Below, in pieces: positions 2,637-47,900 of a stretch of 64,000 nucleotides of DNA (the stretch's first letter is position 1; every line of letters begins with the position of its first letter). The translations under genes were made by a program, and so were the position numbers. Under the pieces are notes generated by a model that saw nothing but the letters and a program-made list of their open reading frames with translations, made no database searches and was not told the origin of the DNA. The stretch comes from Tetradesmus obliquus (lineage: Eukaryota > Chlorophyta > Chlorophyceae > Sphaeropleales > Scenedesmaceae), in NCBI GenBank assembly GCA_030272155.1, contig CP126191.1:5230501-5294500 (forward strand). The letters are read 5' to 3'.

Positions 2637-3377
2637 GCAGGAGGCGTTGCTGCAGCAGTGCCAAATGGGCAGCAGCATGAACAGGTGCAGGCCAGCCCCG
2701 CGTCCCCACTAGGCGAAAACGCACCGCCAGTAGGCGCTGCTGCTAGTGCAGCGGCAGCAGCAGCGGCAGCAGGTGAGACCAGCAGTTGCGCAACTCGTAT
2801 CATAGCTCGTCAGCATGCGTAACACAAATGATTGATTGCGCCTGCGCACGACACTGGATGTATCAGGATGGCACAGGATTAAAAACTTATGCATGACTTG
2901 CCAGTCAGCAGCACAAACCACGCAACGATTAGCAACCTTTGATCTTATACACTCAGGTAGCCAGCATAATGCAGTCCGTGCTTGGTTGGTCATGGATCAG
3001 TTGGCCACAGAAGCACTCTGTTGCTGCTGCTGTTGCCTGTTGCAGGCAAGCGGCCTGCGCCGCGGTCAGCTGCTGACAGTCAGCAGGCAGCCAAACGCAG
3101 GCGCGCGGATGCAGCTCCCGGCAGCCAACCACGCAAGCCTGGCATGTGGGTGATGGCTGCTGCTGCGGTGTGCCTGCCGCCTGTGCTATGCCATTTGATA
3201 TGTACTTGTGTGTATTGACTGCCTGAAATGTATTGACTGCCTGACTAGCTTGCCAAGCAGAAAATCTAGAACAGGTGGCGATGACGGGCATACATGCTGA
3301 ACGGCTGCTTTGCTTTGCGGCGTCACACAGCTCTTATGTGCTCGCTGTACATCGGTGCTGCTTTGTGCAGGTCCGGC

Positions 3378-3415
<38 letters not shown>

Positions 3416-4040
3416 CAACAGCACCCCACAACAAAGTCCTGCAGATGATGCTGGACCTGACGGCAGCAGTCGTGGCCCCAGCAAGCAGCAAGCTGTTCGT
3501 CAGCAAGCAGGCAAAGCAGCAGACGCCCAGCATGGGGCGCAGCGGCAGGTCAGCAGGCAGAGCTCGCAGCGCAGCCGCAGCCGCAGTAGAGAGCGCCAGC
3601 AGCAGCTGCAGCAGCAGGACAAGGGCAGCTCTTGGGACCGCAGCCGTGACAGGGAGGCTGCAGCAGCTGCCAAGGCGCGGCCTGGCTACAGCAGTGGCAG
3701 GCCTGAGGGCGCGGCCAAGCGCCAGGCCTCCACACCAGCAGGCACAGCAGCCGCAGCAGCAGGTGTGGCTGGTGGCAATGCAGATGAAATCACAGACTAT
3801 GTGGCTCGCTTTGATGCAGAGGCAGCACCAGACAGGCAGCATGCTGTGCAGCAGGTTGACCAGCTGCTGACAGCGATGGCCCCGCTGGACTGCCTGGTGG
3901 CCATGGCTAAGGCTGTGCGGCGGCTGAAACAGCAGACGCTGTGCACCGAGCCAGGGTTGGTAGAAGAGGTCTGCAGGAACTTTGCGGCATTTGTGCGTGA
4001 CAGCGGCGACGGCGTGCGCAGCAGTGCAGGCCGCCCATAG
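1..4040 (+). CDS. CK1-family Ser/Thr protein kinase with Gln-rich and SR-like tail (5' partial)
   Basis: Exons read as <1-124, 282-338, 548-643, 1088-1274, 1455-1649, 1872-2012, 2329-2772, 3046-3145 and 3371-4040; all junctions keep frame and 669 residues are visible. No ATG lies in the first exon, so the N-terminus is outside the window. Kinase landmarks appear in order: glycine loop LGEGQF, lysine in YALKLEKRK, HRDIKPANF, IDFGLARRY, then a CK1-style RGSTTYASVHAH activation segment and LPWR. The lack of an APE motif with this segment is the CK1/tau-tubulin-kinase signature. The tail holds a 17-Gln run, a basic cluster (AKRRR) that may be a nuclear signal, a second Gln run, an Arg/Ser-rich stretch and a conserved-looking C-terminus. 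The intron after 338 uses a GC donor (AAG|GCAAGC). The family phosphorylates acidic or primed Ser/Thr sites; the specific substrate is unknown. A nuclear role is inferred only from the basic and SR-like segments. Confidence 0.88.
2040..2083 (+). repeat. CTG microsatellite in a CK1-kinase intron
   Basis: A pure CTG run of 44 bases lies in the intron between exons ending at 2012 and starting at 2329, shortly after the donor. It is not coding; open frames across it are artefacts of the triplet repeat. Confidence 0.95.
2583..2633 (+). repeat. (CAG)17 microsatellite coding for polyGln
   Basis: Seventeen uninterrupted CAG codons lie within exon 7 of the CK1-family kinase and encode a Gln tract in its tail. 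It is one of the longest pure triplet runs in the window. Confidence 0.97.
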
Positions 4041-27101: not shown

Positions 27102-28337
27102 CTACACGGCCAGCGGCTGCGCTGCCATAAAGAAGTTGGCAAAGAAGCGCAGCCCCTCAGGGCCATCATCACGGCACAGCACGCCACGCGCCTCCGCCAC
27201 CAGCAGCGCCTCGCGCGCCAGTGTCAGCGGCAGGCTCAGCGCGCCACTCACATCTGTTGCTGACAGCGCCGGCCCCAGCTGCACACCAACAGCTGCAGCT
27301 GATGCTGCTGCGTTGCGGTCTCCAGGTGTTGCGCTAGCTTGCTGCTGCTGCTGTTGCTGGGCCTTGTCTTGCAGCAGCCGCTGTATGCTGCTGCAGAGCT
27401 GCGCGTCGCTGAACTGGCTGCCCTGCACCACGATGACGCCGCTGGGGAATTTGCGCACACGCAGCGGCAGGCCCACCTGGCAGCAGCAGCAGCAGCAGCA
27501 GCAGCGCCAGCAGCAGAAGTGCAAGAAGGGAGGGTAAAGCATTGTGTGACAGACACTGCTCACTATCCAGCAAATGGGCCTGCCATTGGCAAGCTTTGCA
27601 GCATGGCTGCAGCAAGCAAGGACACCATCTGCACAGCTCCAAGCAGACCTCCCCGCACTGCACATGCACCGCCTAAGCAGCTGCCAGCAACAGCCCGCTG
27701 TCCACTCAGCACCACCCAAACTCAAGTGCACTCAAAACCATCCCGGGCTACACCAAGTGCCCCCTTTGTACACGTGCTGACACAAAATCTGCAAAATCTG
27801 CAACAAGTCTGCAACACCTTCGTGCTGCGGGCCGCACCTGAGGGAAGGCCTCGCAGGCCTGCAGCAGGTCATCAGGCGACACAAGCTCGCTGCCGCGCGC
27901 GCGGTTGAACAGGCAGTACACATCAGGCAGCATCAGCACGCCCCCGGCACGCGCCAGCGGCGCAGCAAGGAAGTCCGCAAGCTGCCTGCTGAGCTCCTGG
28001 TGGTAGCGTGCACCTGCGGATGCTTTCGTCACAGGGCTGGCGATGCCCATCGCAATCAGCTGCAGCTGCGTGTCAGCATCCAGCAGCAGCTGCTCGCCGC
28101 TGCTGCCGCCACCTTCTGCGGCACTGTTATTGTTATTGTTCGTGTTATTTAACGCGATGCTGCCATCGGGCCCCATGACGCCCCTGAACTTCTCAGCTAG
28201 TGCCACCATGTCAGCAGCCATGGCCATGAGTGCTTCCAAGTCCCTGAATGCAGCAGCCAGGCTGGCACTTGTCGCGCTGCTCTTGGCTGCCTCACGATGC
28301 ATGATGCCCGCCACACCCACCACGCGACTGCCAGGCC

Positions 28338-28380
<43 letters not shown>

Positions 28381-28963
28381 AGTGCTAGGACCCGCACTGC
28401 TGTACCCTGCCGGGCCACTGCTGCTGCTGCTGTTCAACACGCCGCTGCCAGCAGCAGCGGCAGCTGGGGGCCACATGCTGCCTGCTGCAGCACCTGATGA
28501 AGCAGGTGCCCCAACAGCACTCGCAGCTGCCACAGAGCCCAGGCCCCAGCCTGGCAGCGGCGCCTGCTGCTGCTGCTGCTGCCGCATGGCTGCCAGCTGC
28601 TGCAGCTGCTGCAGCTCCTGCCTGCTGACCTGGCTGGGCTCAGGGCCGGCCCAGGGCGCATGAGTGGAGGGGTCAGCGCTGGCAGCCAGGATCCAGTCGA
28701 GTGCGGCCTGCATGTGCTCGCTATGGGTGGCCAGCAGCGCGCGCAGCACCCGTGGACGCGGGAAGCCCTGCATGTGCATGCAGTTGTATGTGTGGTGAGG
28801 TGGGGCAGGTTGGGAGTGAAGCAGGTTGGGAGTAAGCAATTTGGGAGTGAAGCAGCAGCAGCAACACACACTGCAACCATAGGTATACCGTTGCTGCTGT
28901 GTTGAGCGCCAGACAGAGGGAAGGAGTGGTTGCAGGCAGTAGCCACTTCATTCAGCTTGCATG

Positions 28964-29000
<37 letters not shown>

Positions 29001-29237
29001 ATGCTTTGTTAGCCTTCTTCAGTGCTGCCAGGGGGCCCTGCGGCACCCCTCACTTCCCACACTCACCATATCTAGCAGGGCAGACAGCAGCTCCCTGTCA
29101 ACTGCTTGGATTGCTGGCTGCTGCTGCTGCTGCTGCATTGACATCGGGCACTGCTCTGTTGCAGCGGCTGCACCAGGTGGCAACCGCCCCTGCAGGCCAT
29201 CTGCAGGCGAGCTCAGCCTGCCGGCTGCTGCTGAATG

Positions 29238-29279
<42 letters not shown>

Positions 29280-30353
29280 GCCACTTGGTGCGCTGAGCCT
29301 GCCACTGGCTGGGCCAGCCCAAGATGTGCCTTGTGCACCTGCTGGCTGCTGCATCTGCTGCTGCGCAGATTGCTGCTGCTGCTGCTGTCGCTGCTGTTGC
29401 CTCTCTAGCTGCTGCCGCAGCGCCTGCATTGCTGATGTGAGGTGGTCGTTGAATGCGTCTGGCCCCTCGCCCCGGCAGCGCAGCTGCAGGTACCTGAAGG
29501 TGGCACTGTTCTGCACTGCAGGCGGCACCCAGCGGCAAGAAGCAGGACACGGTCAGCACGATGACAGCGCAGGTGGTGGGTCTGTAATTACCAAGCTGAG
29601 AGCATGAAGGCTTGTAGACAGCACAGCCGCATGCAGCTGATGCAGCTGGTGCCGTGCTGCGGAGGAACTGCGTGCCGCTGCCTGCCACTTGCGCCACACG
29701 CGCTCACTGTTGCGTAGAGAGTTGCAGTAAACACACTGTGCCTAGCACGTTGCAACATAATGCCCGCTCACTGTTGCAGGGCTGGCTGCGCAGGTCCACG
29801 TAGACCTTGAGCTCCAGCCGCACTTTAGGGTTCATGAGGTTGAGCCCGTACTGCACGCGCTTGCTGCTGCTGTGGATGCTTTCCAGGGGCAGGCAGCAGG
29901 AGCGGCCAGGCGCAGGCCTGGCGCCGGCATCTATCCATAGCACGCGGTGGCTGGTCACAACAGCGTAGCCATTCTGCAGTCAACAGCAGGGATGGCTGTT
30001 TGAGGTTTAAGCAGCACTTGCGCCGCTGTGCTGTTGGGGCTGAGGTGTGGCACAGCAGAAGCGAACGTGCAGCAGCAGCACCAGCAGCAGTGGTGGTGGC
30101 AGCAGTGCTCGCACCTGGTAGCGGTCAGCTGTCTGGCAGCCCTCCGTGCCTCCTATGCCTTCAAACTCCAAGTCAACCTGGCAGTGACGTTTCGCGGCGC
30201 CATGTGTGAGATCGAGCACATCACAAGCTGCATCAGCAACAGCAGGTGGGGAGGGTGTGCCCCACCCACCTTGTCCAGCAGCAACCTCTCGATCTCGCTG
30301 ACAAGCAGCTGAGGGCGCCCACTGGCCGTTAATGTAACCTTTGGCAGAATCAT
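27102..30353 (-). CDS. VPS36: ESCRT-II subunit VPS36 with an internal UBA-like domain
   Basis: Exons 30353-30270, 30177-30115, 29973-29772, 29515-29067, 28767-27838 and 27476-27102 give 700 residues. Residues 1 to about 150 form the GLUE domain: LTASGRPQLLVSEIERLLL, VDLEFEG, and GYAVVTSHRVLWID match plant VPS36. Residues about 414-700 form the winged-helix EAP30/VPS36 region: VVGVAGIMHREAAKSSATSA, then AFRDLEALMAMAADMVALAE and the LSRQLADFL segment. Between them are Gln and Ala tracts and, at about 257-295, a UBA-like module (RELLSALLDMGFPRPRVLRA, later AALDWIL) whose Met-Gly-Phe loop is split by intron 4. VPS36 binds ubiquitinated cargo and phosphoinositides on endosomes and, with VPS22 and VPS25, recruits ESCRT-III. 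No NZF finger is seen. ATG at 30353 was chosen; the frame runs upstream only to a GTG. Confidence 0.93.
28339..28380 (-). repeat. CAG microsatellite coding for 14 Gln in VPS36
   Basis: Fourteen CTG units on the plus strand are read on the minus strand as a run of Gln codons in exon 5 of VPS36, in the linker before the EAP30 domain. Confidence 0.95.
29239..29277 (-). repeat. triplet run coding for polyAla in VPS36
   Basis: The same GCT/CTG repeat type as elsewhere, but read in the frame that gives about 14 Ala residues in exon 4 of VPS36. It lies in the linker between GLUE and the UBA-like segment. Confidence 0.93.
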
Positions 30354-31214: not shown

Positions 31215-31485
31215 CTATACATCCAGCGGCGAGGGCGAGCGCCGCCCCACTTGTGCGTAGCCCCACCGCCTGCCCCACTTGCCGCGCCCCGCGCCATTGC
31301 TGCTGCTGCGCATGCTCCACAGCACCACAATGCCTATCACACCCGCAACACAAATGAATGTGGCCAGCGTGACCGCCTGGCTGATGAAGGCGCTGCGCTG
31401 GCCCTGCTGCGCCTGCTCCTGCTCCTTGGCAAAGTGCTGCGCGTGGTGGCCCTGGCCGCCCGCGGCACTGCTGCTGGCCTTGTCG

Positions 31486-31517
<32 letters not shown>

Positions 31518-34500
31518 GTTGGCATCATCTGCCAGCTGCTGCAGCTTCTCTGCCTCCTTCGCTGCCGCCTGCTGCTGCTGCTCCTGCTGCTCTTCAACTG
31601 GCTGCTCAGCCGGTGTGTCCGCTGGCGCAGCTGCAGCTGGCGTATCAGAGCCGCGGCTGGGCTCCTGCTGCTTGTCCTGCTCCTGAGCAGTGGTGCTGGC
31701 GTCGCCACTGGCCGCTGCTGGCGTTTGCTGCTGCTGCTGTGCTGGCTCTTCCTTGGGTTTTGGCTCTTCCTCTGAGCCTCCAGTGGCTGGCTCCTGCTTG
31801 GCCTCCTCCTGCTTAGCTGCAGGCTGCTGCTTGTCCGGCTGCTTGTCTGGCTGCTTGTCCGCCTTATCTGTTTTCTGCTCCTGCTGCTGCTGAGCGGGCG
31901 GCGGCGAGTCAGTCCCCTGGTGCTTCCGCACCTGCGAGTTGCTCACATCCTCCTGCACAGGCTGCTCCTCCTGCTGCTGCGCAGCATCCCCGCTGCCGCT
32001 GCTGCCCGTGCTGGCTGCACTGCTGCCAGCAGCAGCCTTGGGGTGCTTCTGCTTCCAGGCATCGCCGGCAGGGCAGTCTGGCGGCTGCCTAAACTGGCAG
32101 GGTGCGCTCATGTGGCAGGCATGCGGGTGCTGCAGCACCCAGCTGTACTGCGTGAAGTTCACATCTGCGCGGCGCTGCGGTGCTGCGGTGAAGCCTGCTG
32201 CCCTGAAAGGCGCGGCCTGCAGCTTGTCTGCCGGGGTGAGGCCAGCGTCCTTGCCCAGCAGCAGCTGCTGGAACAGCGCCACCAGGAACTCGAAGCAGGG
32301 GCCAGTCTGCGGGCGGACAGCGCAGGGGCAGGGCAAGCAGTCAGGAGGGCGCGCGACAACAGACACAGAAGCAGCCAGCGGGTGCATGACGCAACATTGC
32401 GAGAACCGAGCGCGTACACAGGTGCTGCAGCTGCTCATTTTACACATGCAGTGCTCGATTTCTGCAGGAGGCAGGGGCGATAAGCCCAGGCCAGCAAGCA
32501 CAGCAAGGGTAGCGGCAAAGAAAACAGACTGCATTCTGCAGTTGTTTAGAGCTTCTGCAGCTGCTCTTATCCCCATGCAACATTCAGTGGCTGCTGCTGC
32601 CGCTGCCCGCCCCCGCTCACGTTGTGGCTGCTGTCCAGGCAGTTGGTGTCGCTGAACACCGCCACCTTGCCGCTGCCGCTGGGCGCCACGCCGAATGCCG
32701 CGTAGTTGCCCGGCACGCCCGCGCCCTTGCCCGCCACATCGGTGAGGTGGCTCACGTGCAGGTGGCCGCCCGCAGGGAAGGTCGCGATGTTGGAGCCGTA
32801 CGCAACCTGCACGGCGCGATGCAGCACAGCGCACACAGCCATACCCGTGATGATACCAGGTTGGGTTAAAGATGCTTGCTGACCTGCAGCTGAGCTACAA
32901 AGCTCCCCAGTGCCGTTGATTGCCGTGAAGCCACAGCACACGCTGCTGCTTGACACAGCTGTATGCACACCATTGCTCCCACGCCTGACTCAAACTGACG
33001 ATTTTGCTTGAGAACCCAGCTAACTCTGTTGGATACATAAATAGCATTGCGATCACAACTGTGCAATGCCAGAGCTGCTGTGCATGCAGCTACCGCTCCA
33101 TCCGTTGTGCACCTGCAGCGTGTGCTTGCCCAGGCTGGTGGAGCCCTGCAGGATGCGCTCGCCCAGGCTGATGCCGTGCGGGGCCAGCAGCTCGTTCAGC
33201 GCGGGCACGTTGGACCCGCCCGTGATGGGCGTCCACCAACTGCGAGTGTTGTCGTCAAAAAACTTCATCTGCTTCAGGCTCTCCTCGTGGTACCTGCGTG
33301 CAGCAGCAGCGGTGGCAGTGGCAGCACCATTAGCAGCAGCACTTGAGGCGGCAACGGCAGCACATGCACAGATTGTTATGGGCACGCACACAGCATGCCC
33401 TATGCTGCACTCAGCTTGGCAGCGGAGTGCTCGTGAATCCACACGTGTTTGACTCCCGTCCACCGTGGTGAGGTCTACAAAGGTGAGCCGTCGCTTACAA
33501 GGAAACACGAAGCTGCCTTAGCAACACAGTAATGTATATGCTGGCAGCAGCACCTGCCGCTCTTCCTATCGAGCCACTCACCACTCAGCGAACACCACCA
33601 GAGCCATGCCATGCTCCTTCACCGCCGACGTGAGCGCGGCAACCTCCTCCCTGCAGCAGCAGTGCAGCAGCAGGCGGCATGAGCGCTGGAGGAGAAGACT
33701 CGCAAGATGCTTGACATGCACTGCACCCAGCGCTGCAGCTCCTCCTAAATGGGAAGGGCTTAGCTCCACTCATTGCGCTGCCTGTCGCAATCGTGCACCA
33801 CCATACCCCACCAACCGACACTCTTTTGCACCACTCCTGCTTCAGCGCGGCCCCAACGCCCCAACCATCACCCAGTCATCTTGCACAACGCCCAGCCACA
33901 CACCAACCACACCTCGCCAATTGCCATCCAACCGCCACCCGCCCTGGGGCTTGCTGTCTCAGCTAGAACAGCGATAAAACAATTTTGTCCCCTTGTATCT
34001 ATGACACACCTGGCACGCAAAGCGTTGAAGCAGCCACTCACTTGTACCACTCCTCCTCCGCGTCCAGCACCAGGTAGCCGCCGTAGTTGCGCGGGTCAAA
34101 GCAGCTGGCAGGGCTGGCCAGCAGCTCCACGCTGAAGCCGGCCCCCCGCAGCGCGTCGTAGGCCTCGTGGAAGTTGGTGTAGGGGTGGTCGCCGTGCCAG
34201 TCCAGCACGTCACTCTGCAGGAGACGGGAGGGGTGGGCGGCCGTATGCAGGCGAGAGGCCGACAGAAGCAGGGAATACAGATGTTGGAAGGCAGCAGCGC
34301 AGGTGTGCGGTGTGTGGCTAAGCACCTTCTTGACAAGCTGCTCGTTTGCTGTGTGAACGGTGATGCGCCAAACCTTCTGGAAGCGTCAGTCTGAAGCCTA
34401 ACTCAAGCAGCATGACCCCTGCCGCTGTAAAAACCACAGCGCACCAGAACGCAAACACACCAAGAGCACTCATGCTGCTAGCCGAGCAGGCGCACCTTGA

Positions 34501-35341
34501 TGTCCAAGTTGTCGCGGGGCACGTAGCCAGGCGGGTACTTTATGCTGTGCAGCACGTCCCACACGATGCGCTGCTCACGCGGCGGCGTGGGCTTGATCAC
34601 CGCGCTGAGCGGCACCACCACCTTGCTGCTCTGCGGGTCTTTGCTCTCCGCGCCCAGCTGCCCCGGGCTGGTGATGGTGAAGGTGATGCGGCCGGTGGCA
34701 TTGCCGCTGAACGCCTCGGCAGCAGGGCTCACCTGGCAAAACAAGCACAGCGCAGCAGGACAGAACAGGGTGTTGCAGAGGCTGCGCCGCACAGATGGGC
34801 CCATCAACACATATTGGCAGGCAATCAAAACACCCTGCCGGCACAGCAAACACCCTGCCGGAGTCCCATGTTGGCCTGATCAAGCTGCACAGACACATCC
34901 AAATGGGTAGCGCCCGCCCCACCTGTACATACACCGCCAGGTAGCCCGACCACGGCCACAGCACCTCGCTGTACTGGAACGTCACGTGCAGCATCTTGCC
35001 CCCCTCGTCCAGCCCCTCGTACACGGGAGGCCCCGCAAAGTAGCCCGTGTTGGCCATGCCATTCACCACGGTAGCATTCAGCACCACCGGCAGCGCGTGC
35101 GCGTACAGCGGCTGCTTGCAGTGCGGCCACATGTAGGGGCAGTCTGCCAGGTGGATGGCCGGGGGTATGAGCGAGGCGCGTGGCGTGTAGTTGGCCAGAA
35201 TGGCTTGCGAGGCAGGCAGGTTGATGCGGCCGTTGCCCTGCTCATGCATGTTGAGCTGTGGCAGCCGGAACGCGCCCTCCACCAGGGCCTGCTTCATGGA
35301 GGCGGGGTTGAGCAGCTGGGAGCGTGGACATGGAGTCGCAC

Positions 35342-35376
<35 letters not shown>

Positions 35377-38300
35377 GGCAGGTGTCAGCCTATGTCCTGC
35401 GCAAGCCCACCTCAAGCCAACTGACAAAGCAGAATGCAATCTGGTTATTGTGAGCTGCAACCGCCAACCGTGGCATGATGAGCGCTTGCCGGCATGCCCC
35501 CTCAATGCCGTCCTGCAGCTCGCTGCAGCCGCCAGTGCCGCCTGCCAGCATGCCGCCTGCCGGCACGCAGGAGCTGAGCCGGCTGCCACGAAGCTCGACA
35601 CGGCACATAGTGGTCTGCATATGTCTAGCTGCATCTCTGCAGCTTGCCTGCCTGCACGCTGCTGCTCACCCATCGCCGCTCCTCGGGCAGCGTGCTAGCC
35701 AGCAGGCACACCGCGCCCGCCACCACTGGGCTGGCCACGCTGGTGCCGCTCAGGCTGCGGCAGCCCGTGGTGATCTTGCTGCCGGTGACGTCCTTGGCGT
35801 ACGCCATCACGTCAGGCTTGATGCGCCCTGCGCAGCGCGGTGCACAGCAGCAGCGTTGGGCCAGGCAGGGGAGCATTAACGTGCCGTGCACGAGTCGCAG
35901 GCAAGGAGTACCAAGCACGGGTATGCGGGCCCGGGGGCGAGAAAGCGCTGATGATGTTGCTTGCTGTAAAAAACAGCACCAACAGCAAGCGCAAGCTCTA
36001 CTGGGAGGTGCAGCAACAGCACACCATGACTGCATGCCACATGCTGACTGCCGGCAACGTCCCTCCATCCAGCATAGCAGCCACCACCGCAGCCTGTTTG
36101 CGCACAGCACAGCACAGCACAACAAAGCTCATCACAGCACATCACAGCACATGCTACAACGCTTCCCACACACCCCGCCGCAGCAGCCGCAGCCGCCGCA
36201 CCTGTGCCAGCCGGCAGCTCCCAGGTGGTCATGCCCCTGCTGCTGAACGCCGCGATGTTGTTGTCATTGTCAATGCCGCCAACCCCAATCACGTCCGGCT
36301 GGTCCGCAGGGTTGTTCAGCGTGCCGTAGAGCGGGCCGTCGTTGCCGATGGCGCTGATCATGATGAGGCCGTTGCTGGTCACCTCCCACACCTTCTCCAC
36401 GAATGGCGCGTCCAGGAAGTCCGGGCCGCCGATGGACAGGTTGATCACGTGCAGCTTGCAGGAGATGGCGTAGTTGAACGCGTCCAGGAACCAGCTGGTG
36501 TAGGAGACCTGGTCGTCCGTGAACACCTGCGGATGCGGCACAGCAGCAGCGTGTGCAGGCAGGGGCGCAGCACAGGGCAGTGTTTGTCGGTGAGCGCGGC
36601 GACAGTGCTCTCTGATGTTGGGAGTCTTGGAGCGCTGCGATGAGTGCTGGCAGCTGCAAGACAAGAATCTTGTAGGGCAGACGTTGGCAGGCAGGCAGGC
36701 GGGTGCTGCTGCAGACCCCTGTAATCGACGCACCAAATCCCGCACACAACCACAACCACAACCCCACATGCACACACACACAGCCGCACCTTGAAGGTGT
36801 ACAGCTCCACGTCTGGCGCGAAGCCGGGGCAGGTTGTGTCCTGGCTGCCGATGACGCCTGCCACAAAGCTGCCGTGGCCCAGGCCGTCGCTGAGGCTCTG
36901 TTGGTGCGTCCAGTTGGTGCGCTCCTTGATGTGGCGGATGTGCGGGTGGCCCTCACGGATGCCGGTGTCAAACACGCCCACCTGGGCCGGGGAAGGGGAG
37001 GGAGGGTGCATGCGCAGATGAGGCGTCAACAGCAGTGTGTTATGGTGAGCCGCAGTGCACGACAAGGGCTTATGCAGAGAGCAGGCAGCTTCCTGCAGGG
37101 GGCGGCAGCATGCACGAGCAACTGTTGCTATGCGTGGGCGCCCCTGCCACCTGGGCGAGCGCCGTGCAGCTGCCTCATGCACAAATCTGCGACAAGCGCG
37201 CTCCCGCGTCAATAACCCCATCACTGGCCCTCAAATCAGATCAGAATTACTCAGCAACAGGCCTCGTTTAGCAGTAGCGCCACACACACCTTGATGCCCT
37301 TGCCGCTGTAGCCCTGGTCCCACAGCTTCCCAGCCTCCAGCAGCACAGTCACAGCATCAGCCGCGGCAGTCAGGCTGCGGCCCAGCTTTCGCTGCCCCTG
37401 CTGCTGCCGCTGCTGATCGGCCGCACCACTGCTGCTGCCAAACAAACGCTGCCAGCTGCTGCTCAGCAGGTTGCGCCGCCTGCTGCTCCTGCGCAGCTCC
37501 TCACGGCCCAAGCTGTCCTCCCTGTCAGCTGGGTTGCGCGGGTCTAGACCGATTGTTGGCTTGGTGGTCAGGCGGCCGGGCGGCTTGCTCACAGTCCATA
37601 TGCTGTCTGCATCCTCATCAGCATCAGCAGGTGGGCTGACACCTGAGCTACTGCCAGCAGCAGGTGGCGGGCCTTGATGCTGCTGCTGCTGCTGCTCTGC
37701 TGGCTGCTGCTTGGTTTGCTGCTCTGCATCTGCCAGCAGCGAGCGCTGCAGCTGCCGCCCGAAGTCCGGCTCCTGCTGCATGCGCAACCGCTCCGGCTGT
37801 GTCCGCAATGCTGGATGGTGCTGCTGCTGCTGCTGCTGCTGCACGTTGCTGAATGCTGCCGCCAGCTCGCCCTCTGGCTGCCAGTTGAGCAGGCCGCGGA
37901 TGCGCCTGTCAGGGTGCATGTCACGGAAACCAGACACCTGCTGCAGCGCTGCGCGCAGCACTTGCAGCTGCAGCGGCGCCACCGACAGCAGCGCAAAGTC
38001 CGAGGGGTGCTGCAGTGCTGCCTTGTTAGGGCGCTCCAGCCAGGCCCAGTGCTGCTGCAGGTGCGCGAGTGCCTGCAGGAAACAGCAGGAGCCGGCACGA
38101 AGCACCGCATGTAATGCACCTGCGTAAGCTTAAAAGCCAGTTCCTGCTGCACAGCCATGACAGAGTCTAGGTGAGCAAGCATATGCTAGCGTGCATGCAT
38201 GCTCGTGCAGGGATAGAGGTATATGATGTTTCTTTCTCGCAGGTGCTGTAATCGCGTGATGTGCATGCATGAACGCCACAACCACCGTGTGATATTGCTG

Positions 38301-39584: not shown

Positions 39585-40718
39585 ATGGCAGACAGTCAGT
39601 TCTATCTGCGGTATTATGTAGGCCACACGGGCAAGTACGGGCACGAGTTCCTGGAGTTTGAGTTCCGGCCAGATGGGGAGGTGCGTGGGTGCCCATGGCA
39701 GCTCAGGGCAGCTGATGGGCTGCTACTGCTGCTGCTGAGGCTCAGCAACCCATGCTTGCTCTGCTTGTACAGATGCGCTACAGGAACAACTCAAACTACA
39801 AGAATGACACGGAGATCAGGAAGAAGGCATACGTTTCGCAAGCAGTACTGGACGAGCTGAAGAGGATCATTGAGGATGCAGAGGTGAGGCGCCGCTAGCG
39901 CTGCTGCTGCCGCCGCCGCTGCATGGCGCCGCTGTGCAAGTTGCTGCAGCGCCGTATCACTATGATGCAGCCCTCCCAGCAGCAATGCACAAGCACACGG
40001 CGAGCCTCATGCAGCCTGTGCCCGCCCGCTGCTGCCTGCGTGCATGCAACACGCGCGCGAGCTTAGATCATGAAGGAGGACGACAACAACTGGCCCATGC
40101 CGGACCGAGTGGGCAAGCAGGAGCTGGAGATTAAGATGAACGGCGAGCACATCTGCTTCAACACCACAAAGCTGGGCTCCGTGCTCCAGGTGCAGCAGAG
40201 CAAAGATCCAGACGGGCTCAGAATATTCTACTACCTGGTGCAGGTGCGCGGCAGGCACAGCAGCGGGCAGCGCTGCACAGGACAAAGGCATGTGCTGTGT
40301 GAACATGAGCAGTTGGTTGTGGTCTGTCACAACCTGCTGGTAGCCCTTTTGTTCAACTACGTGTTTTGCACGAGTTGCTGGTGTTGTACGACCTGCTGTG
40401 TGCATCACACTTTAGATGGCAGTGCGGACACAAAGGCAACTTCCTGCATCACGGAGGGCATGCTGCGGCGTGATCCGGGTCCCCTCAGCGCTGAGGAGCG
40501 CCTGTTGCTGCGGTGCAGTTTGCATTGTGTCAAGCATACCTTGCATCTTGACGCGATGCAGTGCTGTCAGAGAATGCACAGACGTGGCTCTGCAGCTGCA
40601 GCCATCCTCTGCCCTGCATGCGCGGCTGTGCTGCTTCGTCCCCGCCCCGCAGGACCTCAAGTGCTTCGTGTTCTCGCTGATCAGCGCACACTTCAAGATC
40701 CAGCCCATCCAGAAGTGA
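39585..40718 (+). CDS. MAGO: Mago nashi, exon junction complex core subunit
   Basis: Exons 39585-39680, 39773-39883, 40067-40243 and 40653-40718 give 149 residues, the normal family length. The sequence is near-invariant: [83 protein letters not shown], ISFxT-like [12 protein letters not shown] and the C-terminus [14 protein letters not shown]. Mago pairs with Y14/RBM8A and clamps eIF4A3 on spliced mRNA about 20-24 bases upstream of exon junctions, affecting export, localisation and decay. The protein has no low-complexity insert, unlike most neighbours, consistent with strong constraint. It shares a divergent promoter with S1P. Confidence 0.98.
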
Positions 40719-41286
40719 GCAGCAGCTGCAGCAGCAGCAGCAGCAGCAGTAGATTGATTGAGCACGCAGCTGGCTGGCGAGGCGGCTGGGGCAGGCAGCC
40801 TGCGCAGCACAGCAGCACTCCAGCTGGGAGGCTGCAGGCGTGTGCAGTCGCAGAGGGCTGGGCTGCCGCAGCAATGCCTGCGCCGCCGCCAGCTGCAGGC
40901 GTGCTCTTGCAGACTTGCCTTGCCGCTTGTGAGAGTTGACGCACTGCGGCACTGCAGCAGTGCGGTTTAGTTCGGAACGTATGGGGTGGCCTGTGGTTGC
41001 CTTGTGCGTGTTATCTTTGTGCGTTGGTTACGAACAGTAGTGGCACAGCTGCTGTTTGATATCGCTTGGTTTCAGCAGCCCCTTCCAGCTGCACTGCTAA
41101 CGTGACAACTGGTCTCTTTGCCAACTGGTTGTGGCACCAAATCAAGTGTGGTGCCTGCGTTAATGACTTGGTTTCTATGCGCACAGCGCTGCTGGGCATG
41201 TCGCTTTGTCTGTTCGCTGTTTGTGTGTTTACTTGTTGCTGTGTTGGTTGTGCACTGGATCTGAGTGGCAGCATGCATGAGCAGTG

Positions 41287-44900: not shown

Positions 44901-47900
44901 GGACCGGCAGTCCAGCTGCTTGCGCACACGTGCCAGGTACGCCTGCAGCGCATAGTATGAGGGCAAGAGGGCACAGCAGGCCGCGTAGTGCACTGGGTGG
45001 TCTGCTGGAGAGCAGCACAGCGAGCTCGCAAGCCCCACAACAACACTCATTACAGTTATCTGCCACCTGTGCTACAGAGATCCAAAGCTGCTTCTAACCA
45101 CGTGCATGCATGCCGCATGCGCGCAAGCCCACCTGCAGGTCCCTGTCTGCCTCCTCCACCGCCGCCTTGGCCGCGTCATAGGCGGGGTCCACGCCCGCCT
45201 TGCTGGGACGCACCACGCCCTGGCGCTCAGCCTCGCCCCACTCCGCAGCAGCCTGCAGCACAGCACAGCACAGCACAAGCGTCGGCAACATGCAACAGCT
45301 GACAACATTCCCAAAGTAGCCAAGGGTGGCTCGCAGCTGCAAAGCACAGGCTGCAACCACAGGCTCTGCCTACTGCATCTTGCACAGTCCCTGCTGCTGA
45401 TCCAAATGTCCTGCAGCCATGCACGCCACGCCATTATGTGCTGTGCACCTCAACCTGGTGCACGCGTGCTGCGCATGTGCTGCCTCACCTGCATGTCTGC
45501 CAGCCGCGCCTTGAAGTCGCTCCAGCGCTCAGGGTCGGCCAGCGCTAACAGCAGCTCGCTGCTCAGCGACAGCTGCAGCAACGCGCAGCCAAAAGGAAGA
45601 ACACAAGGCAGCAACGCATTCAAGGTAAGGGGGTTGCCAGAGATTTGTGTGTGGCAGCATGTTTGTGCGCATGATTGTGTGTGGCATGCATAGCCTGTAG
45701 CACGCTGCAGGCCAGGTGGTCTCCTCAGCATTGACAGCCATCGACCGCACCGCGTTCTGCAGCACAGACTCGCCTTGCATGTGACATGCGCGAGTAGCGC
45801 TACCGCAACATGCCGCCACCTGGCCAAACAGAGTACTGCAATTGCAAACCTGCAGCCAATGTGTCGCACCAAAGCCAACATCATTTTTACCATCCCATAC
45901 ATCAAGCCAGCAAGCCGCAACCCGCGCGCACCTCCCCAAAGGCCGCCAGCGCATCCGCTAGCGCCTGCAGGTCCCGCATTGCGCCCACCAGCACCTTCAC
46001 GCGCCGACGCGCCACATCCTCGTACAGCACCACATGTGCTGCCTCGCGACCAAAGCCGCCGCTGCTGCTGCCACCGCTGCCTGCGCGTCCCACGGATGCG
46101 GCCAGGCGTGCCAAGCAGCGCTCCAGGTCGCTGACGCCTGCCAACGCACGCCGCGCGGAGCCCACTGCGGCGCTGCCTGAGCCCATCAGCTCCTGCAGGG
46201 GAGCCAGGAGCGTGCGGTTGACCCAAGGGGGGCAGAACAGACGACACAGGAGTTGCAGCGCAGGGCTGCTGCGAATGCACATCGCGCAGCCACAGTGCGC
46301 ACAAGGAGCTGCTGCGTGAGGCGTTGTCAATGCCAACAAAACTCAGCAACTCTTCATCACCACAAACACGCACACATGCCCCATTGCTGGGCAACAGCAG
46401 TATTAGTCCAGCATGGGCAGCGCCGCAATCCCAGGTGCAGCGGTAAAGTTCATGAAGGCCGCGCACCTCCACAGCGTCCTGGCGCCGCTCAATGTCCTTG
46501 GTCCTGAACAGCGGCCGGGTGAGCCAGCGCCGCAGCCGCCGCCTGCCGAACGGCGTGGCGCAGTGGTCCAGCAGCCCCAGCAGGCTGCCCTGAGGGCCGC
46601 CCAGCACATTCTCCAGCACCTCCAGGCCCTCCAGGGCAGCGCCGTTGAGCTCCATGGCCACTGGCTCGTCACTGCCGGAGGCCTGCAAACAACATCAATC
46701 AATAATTTGAACAAATACTTAAAAGATTCATATATTGCTATCCATATGAATAATGCAGGCGTGGGTGCAGATGGAGCCTAAAAGAGAAGCAGTATGTCTA
46801 AACACACAAAGCACGCACAGCATAGCACAGCGTGCTATGTCAGCATGCCAGCTCAGCATGCACAGCACAGCATGCCAGCTCAGCATGCACAGCACAGCAT
46901 GCCAGCTCAGCATGCATAGCACAGCATGCATAGCACAGCACGCCCAGCATAGCATGCCAGCACAGCATGCATAGCACTGCACACACATCACAGCACAGCA
47001 CAGCATGCACAACATAGCATGCACAGCATAGCATGCCAGCTCAGCACACACGCAAAGCATGCTCAGCACAACATGCAGCACAGCATGCACAGCGCAGCAT
47101 GCCAGCTCAGCATGCCCAGCACAGCACAGCATAGCACAGCATGCACAGCATAGCATGCACAGCATAGCATGCCCAGCTCAGCATGCACAGCATAGCATGC
47201 ACAGCGCAGCATGCCAGCACAGCACAGCACAGCACAAGACAACGTGCAAAGCATAGCGTGCACCACATAGCATGCCAGCTCAGCATGCACAGCACAGCAT
47301 GCACAGCGCAGCATGCCATCCCAGCATGCACAACATGCCAGCTCAGCATGCACAACACAGCACAGCATAGCACAGCATGCACAGCATAGCATGCACAGCA
47401 TAGCATGCCCAGCTCAGCATGCACAGCACAGCATGCGCAGCGCAGCATGCCAGCACAGCACAACACAACCCAGCATGCACAGCATAGCATGCACAGCATA
47501 ACATGCCAGCTCAGCATGTGCCCTCTCAGCTACCAAATGTAGCAGGACTGAGTATAACGTGTGTGGAAGCGTAATGTAAAAGAAGGTTAGTAAACCAATG
47601 ATAAGCCTGAGGCCCAGCGATAGCTGATATAGGCCGCCTACGTTGCAAGGCACGCGTAGTTCTAACAAGGCGGTACAATGTCACATTGACTGCCGCGTGC
47701 CTCACACGTAGGTGTGAGTCACAAATGTCTAATCATCCACTACATGGATAGTAACAGCTCCTGTTACAGCATGCGCAGCACAGCATGCACAGCGCAGCAT
47801 GCCAGCCCAGCATGCCAGCTCAGCATGCACAGCACAGCATGCCAGCTCAGCATGCACAACACAGCAGGCACAGCACTTTCAGAATAGCATAACAGCACAC

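Follow-up and report, generated by a model that had tools for sequence, protein, structure and literature searches.

The VPS36 gene of the green alga Tetradesmus obliquus carries, in the linker between a GLUE-like domain and the EAP30 core, a UBA domain that sequence comparison confirms as real. VPS36 takes part in membrane sorting and reads ubiquitin tags on its cargo; UBAs are small helical domains, many of which bind ubiquitin. Gained in this linker, the UBA would probably give ESCRT-II, the complex that passes ubiquitinated membrane proteins to the machinery budding them into endosomes, a further and flexibly mounted ubiquitin receptor. If this is true, the part of the complex that reads cargo can be swapped or supplemented, as with the yeast NZF, the animal GLUE and the UBA described here, and ubiquitin reading evolves freely within an assembly that is otherwise fixed. 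The proposal concerns one short domain in one gene and can be tested directly.

How well is the UBA supported? In Pfam the match covers residues 256-301 of the spliced protein, and the curated cut-offs of two families are exceeded, for PF22562 (UBA_7, cut-off 27) with 53.1 bits and an E-value of 3e-14 in the full protein and 59.5 bits in a 67-residue piece, and for PF00627 (UBA, cut-off 22.4) with 22.8 and 28.6 bits, respectively, bearing out the proposal of an earlier note on this DNA that a UBA-type domain spans exons 4 and 5. The NCBIfam library, which is bacterial and archaeal, gave no match. When the 104.66 Mb genome was searched in six frames, the exon 5 half alone was recognized by PF22562 at E 2.4e-8, and PF00627 reached just E 0.16 on this half, below its cut-off. 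A phmmer search of solved sequences with the UBA returned 26 distinct matches at E up to 1, headed by 1whc (6.6e-8; a UBA/UBX protein that we take to be UBXN1), USP5 (1.3e-7), USP13 (1.7e-7), Sts-1/UBASH3B (9.3e-6) and UBAC1 (4.5e-5); toward its end the ranking includes a few weak matches that are not UBAs. Identity amounts to 18 of 47 aligned positions with 1whc and 17 of 40 with 2cpw. Because the alignment with the solved 1whc runs ungapped over 50 residues, we infer the whole three-helix UBA fold. In a single-sequence structure model of the exon 5 half (56 residues, mean pLDDT 71.9, pTM 0.36), helices at residues 271-281 and 283-297 sit where UBA helices 2 and 3 would be expected, lending weak support to this fold; helix 1 is encoded in exon 4 and lies outside the modelled piece.

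Moreover, the domain was scored with a comparison HMM built from 18 other UBAs, namely 11 of the 21 UBA_7 matches of the genome and seven stretches of solved chains, leaving out VPS36 itself and nine partial or poor genome matches. The real 57-residue UBA piece scored 41.5 bits against 11.7 bits for the best shuffle (4619 scored of 5000 made). In the MGF loop Met is found in 17, Gly in all and Phe in 16 of the 18 comparison UBAs, and VPS36 has all three residues, as the earlier note had seen. The helix-3 Trp, present in 13 of the 18, is likewise retained, and the helix-3 Ala and the hydrophobic residues of AALDWIL agree with the same set.

A splice model based on splice signals and homology places the VPS36 gene on the minus strand of the window (the whole 64,000-nucleotide stretch of DNA analyzed here), with a coding span from 30353 to 27102 divided into six exons (30353-30270, 30177-30115, 29973-29772, 29515-29067, 28767-27838 and 27476-27102). 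Joined, the exons give an uninterrupted reading frame of 700 residues, and each of the five introns has GT-AG borders. Exons 1-3 (29772-30353, two introns inside) encode the GLUE-like domain, with the PF11605 match at residues 10-105, and exon 4 continues with what by eye was placed as the last GLUE strand and helix, followed by a Q-/A-rich linker up to the UBA (29100-29515). Exon 4 closes with residues 256-266 (29067-29099), which comprise helix 1 of the UBA and the first residue, Met, of its MGF loop. Residues 267-301 come from the start of exon 5 (28663-28767); they complete the loop with Gly and Phe and contribute the second and third helices (AALDWIL) as well as a weak C-terminal extension. 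A second low-complexity linker, rich in Q, A and S (residues 302-415, 28321-28662), leads to the paired winged-helix EAP30 domain (PF04157; 2zme) at residues 416-680 in exons 5 and 6 (27165-28320), inside which the intron 27477-27837 falls. The UBA is in effect an island of normal complexity flanked by low-complexity Q/A-rich linkers, and the domain order in the spliced protein places it between GLUE and EAP30 as had been claimed. CAG/GCA runs on the minus strand, likely variable in length, occur in exon 4 (29278-29240, 13 units), in the intron splitting the UBA (29000-28968, 11 units) and in exon 5 (28380-28339, 14 units).

The UBA is interrupted by intron 4 (28768-29066, 299 bases), and the question arises whether the two halves are joined at all. 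Exon 4 ends with RELLSALLDM at 29067 before the donor GTGAGT, and exon 5 opens with GFPRPRVLRALL at 28767 behind the acceptor ATGCAG, its start reading GFPRPRVLRALLATHSEHMQAALDWIL as in the earlier note; the join is in phase 0 between Met266 and Gly267. With donors taken from 29215-28865, acceptors from 28955-28615 and a minimum intron length of 60 bases, there are 59 in-frame GT..AG pairs that keep the frame open, and these were compared by UBA score. The junction 29067/28767, which had been proposed before, came out on top with 35.6 bits, followed by one with 25.5 bits, and all others scored at most 19.7 bits. The introns were placed from signals and homology only, and one could imagine that exons 4 and 5 belong to separate transcripts and that a whole UBA is never produced. 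Such an artefact of the gene model is very improbable, as the scoring HMM is blind to splice sites and the best UBA-completing junction still carries the canonical GTGAGT and ATGCAG. Each half is also tied to another part of the protein, helix 1 by the open frame of exon 4 in which the end of GLUE is read too, and helices 2-3 by the exon 5 frame that continues into EAP30. Provided that splicing follows the signals of the intron, the UBA is shown to be in frame with both GLUE and EAP30.

The sequence of its EAP30 domain supports the identification of the gene product as a genuine VPS36 of ESCRT-II, which the earlier note had assumed. In the spliced protein PF04157 matches residues 416-680 with 158 bits (E 3e-46), and the closest solved chain to this part is human VPS36 (2zme chain B, E 3.8e-42), with yeast Vps36 as a weak match (E 0.008). 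Human and yeast VPS36 make up the first four of the 17 solved sequences found with the EAP30 query at E up to 1, and the name VPS22 is absent among these 17; the EAP30 core is nearer to VPS36 than to VPS22. The N-terminal domain gives weaker matches. PF11605 (GLUE) scores 23.3 bits in the spliced protein (E 7.3e-5) against a cut-off of 24.1, and in the genome search 23.8 bits, or 24.1 together with frame neighbors; phmmer found no match between the region and solved GLUE domains. The domain is taken as GLUE because of its position and its EAP30 partner. No zinc-finger family was detected in the full protein in a Pfam scan at E up to 1, and there is no sign of an NZF within GLUE. When the whole protein was searched against the 104.66 Mb assembly, nine matches fell at or below E 0.01. 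Eight belong to this gene and one, on contig C2, covers the UBA only, so no second copy of VPS36 was found. A second weak GLUE-like PF11605 match lies elsewhere in the genome (G000:C9:4413310-4413453, 23.3 bits, below the cut-off).

Several neighboring genes could be recognized in the window. Upstream of VPS36, also on the minus strand, lie exons of the site-1 protease MBTPS1 (34578-38129) with matches to subtilase and to the third Ig-like domain of MBTPS1; a match to its N-terminal domain in the same interval is below the cut-off. The Q-rich open frame at 31218-32894, to which Pfam gave no match, could be the 3' end of the MBTPS1 gene, which would then perhaps reach 31215. Furthermore, Mago nashi was matched in the open frame 40067-40936 on the plus strand and MutS_III in the open frame 45453-46694 on the minus strand.

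What kind of UBA is inserted into VPS36? Its nearest solved relatives belong to a group that passages of PMC6987245 call extended UBA domains and describe by a WxxxH motif, invariant in helix 3, and by some 10 additional residues; according to the same passages K6-linked diubiquitin is a ligand of the extended form of UBXN1 (Kd near 1.4 micromolar), and the short form shows no binding. Helix 3 of the VPS36 UBA reads W-I-L-A-A with Ala replacing His, and WxxxH is therefore absent. The C-terminal extension is marginal, as the score rises from 33.6 bits without the tail to 38.9 bits with it (+5.3) and 98 of 2000 shuffled tails also reach 38.9 bits. Judged by its sequence matches, the VPS36 UBA is a relative of the extended group minus its hallmark. 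A K6-specific extended UBA was considered and dropped on account of the missing WxxxH and the marginal tail test; because the histidine is absent, specificity for K6 chains is not predicted.

The missing histidine and the weak tail, which is equalled by 98 of 2000 shuffled tails, also bear on the question of the binding partner. Some UBAs do not bind ubiquitin. The VPS36 UBA could be folded and contact another protein, or ubiquitin attached to VPS36 itself, in regulation or assembly rather than ubiquitin on cargo, and in principle the retained GLUE-like domain makes a further ubiquitin receptor dispensable. We consider such a non-cargo contact unlikely, since neither the MGF loop nor the Trp of helix 3 is missing and most of the top solved relatives belong to the ubiquitin system. 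The preferred reading is still that of an additional receptor for ubiquitinated cargo. In the lineage of this organism a conserved UBA may even be a dedicated ubiquitin receptor of VPS36 on a flexible arm, a third way after the yeast NZF and the GLUE surface for ESCRT-II to hold ubiquitinated cargo, though this we put forward more tentatively; its chain preference would possibly be unlike that of the UBXN1 type because the helix-3 histidine is missing.

The origin of the domain was sought within the genome. A recent copy from another gene was rejected: none of the 20 other UBA_7 matches of the genome comes near the UBA of VPS36, the top score being 75, where the exon 5 half compared with itself scores 220. 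All 11 paralogues in the comparison HMM lack an intron at the site equivalent to Met-Gly, therefore no shared intron indicates a donor, and none is visible among the UBA_7 matches of the genome. Scans of viral contigs and prokaryote genome contigs for exact short peptide patterns gave 0 confirmed loci, and so supplied no relatives that would show conservation. Together with the Q/A-rich expansions on both sides, this could be read as a sign that selection on the UBA is slight, the domain being a relic or a passenger private to this lineage in a linker tolerant of insertions. Without selection the stretch should decay, however, and here the compared core consensus positions are intact, neither a stop nor a shift interrupts the frame and the score is far above that of the shuffles, making a mere passenger quite improbable.

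Could the UBA make up for a receptor lost elsewhere in the pathway? The same genome has matches over the cut-off for a second, separate EAP30 gene on contig C11, which is taken as VPS22, for VPS25-like exons on contig C6, and for UEV and VPS28. In addition, two joined exons on contig C6 give a match over the cut-off to a GAT domain of the TOL/TOM1 type. VHS gave no Pfam match in the genome, nor did it in the control genomes, and the VHS-like stretch of the TOL/TOM1-like gene is not recognized by Pfam. A UBA compensating for a lost ESCRT-0-like receptor was rejected, as GAT, UEV and VPS28 matches are present and a loss is unsupported. Given the GLUE-like domain and the VPS23, VPS28, VPS25 and TOL/TOM1-like GAT matches, the UBA looks added rather than compensatory. 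The earlier note had regarded a UBA in VPS36 as a third solution beside NZF and GLUE. This is only half right, since the GLUE-like domain, which scores about at the Pfam cut-off, is kept, so that the UBA is more likely an added receptor than a substitute. Addition is also the more likely course because Arabidopsis VPS36 is stated to bind ubiquitin in a passage that mentions no UBA.

The TOL/TOM1-like gene (G000:C6:836000-844000, about 3110-3930) shows a peculiarity of its own. It contains six tandem variants of YKSMLAEVIPSLTEEDL, the start of the second half of the GAT domain, spread over three frames, a pattern that would fit the multiplication of a single exon. The last YKSMLAEVIPSLTEEDL copy and an upstream exon, joined by eye, yield the GAT domain with E 9.2e-11.

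How might the additional domain act? The change would have been the gain of a UBA in the long low-complexity linker between GLUE and the EAP30 core of VPS36. Folded as the usual three-helix bundle, the UBA would use its MGF loop and helix 3 to contact the hydrophobic patch of the ubiquitin that membrane cargo carries, with GLUE serving membrane binding and perhaps ubiquitin binding too, and EAP30 serving the assembly of ESCRT-II. Carried on flexible Q/A-rich arms, the UBA could offer ESCRT-II a further weak ubiquitin contact, and cargo arriving from TOL/TOM1-like proteins and ESCRT-I might in this way be held at higher avidity.

No published report of a UBA in VPS36 was found in passages of the open-licence literature, though it may be recorded elsewhere, for example in supplements or in automatic annotation of algal proteins; such a domain of VPS36 is unmentioned in the passages of PMC11188069, PMC12051064, PMC8394649, PMC4276913, PMC9192718, PMC7253699, PMC9400068, PMC9400066, PMC4028247, PMC7056813 and PMC6015221. 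How does the algal protein compare with known systems? The extended UBAs of UBXN1, USP5, USP13, UBASH3A/B and UBAC1 (PF22562) provide the best solved matches of the VPS36 UBA, which differs from them by the absence of the WxxxH His and by showing a weak trace of the C-terminal extension. UBAP1 is likewise an ESCRT subunit with a ubiquitin-binding domain, in its case a UBA as the name also tells, but it belongs to ESCRT-I and its UBA is distant, the solved chain 4ae4 matching the VPS36 UBA at E 0.08. Review passages describe the ubiquitin-binding domain of this animal subunit as built in. For Arabidopsis VPS36 ubiquitin binding is stated in a review, in a passage without mention of a UBA, and in the part of PMC9400066 that tables Arabidopsis ubiquitin-binding proteins VPS36 is entered with 'VPS36' rather than UBA as its binding prediction. 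This plant ESCRT-II subunit has 440 residues against 700 in algal VPS36. Human VPS36 (EAP45) has the closest solved EAP30 sequence (2zme) and GLUE at the N-terminus, where the algal protein has its GLUE-like domain; its linker is short and not known to contain a UBA, and GLUE is its ubiquitin reader, whereas algal VPS36 carries the linker UBA. Review passages and cited titles agree that animal VPS36 uses GLUE for ubiquitin, and Eap45 is tabled under GLUE in a passage of PMC7056813. Yeast Vps36, as described in passages of PMC11188069 and PMC4276913, contains two NZF fingers in a split PH/GLUE fold, one of them for ubiquitinated cargo. Yeast and algal proteins share the GLUE-EAP30 frame of ESCRT-II, with GLUE-like for GLUE in the alga, and an extra ubiquitin-binding module, predicted as such in the alga, but in yeast this is a zinc finger within the split PH/GLUE fold and in algal VPS36 a UBA in the linker after GLUE.
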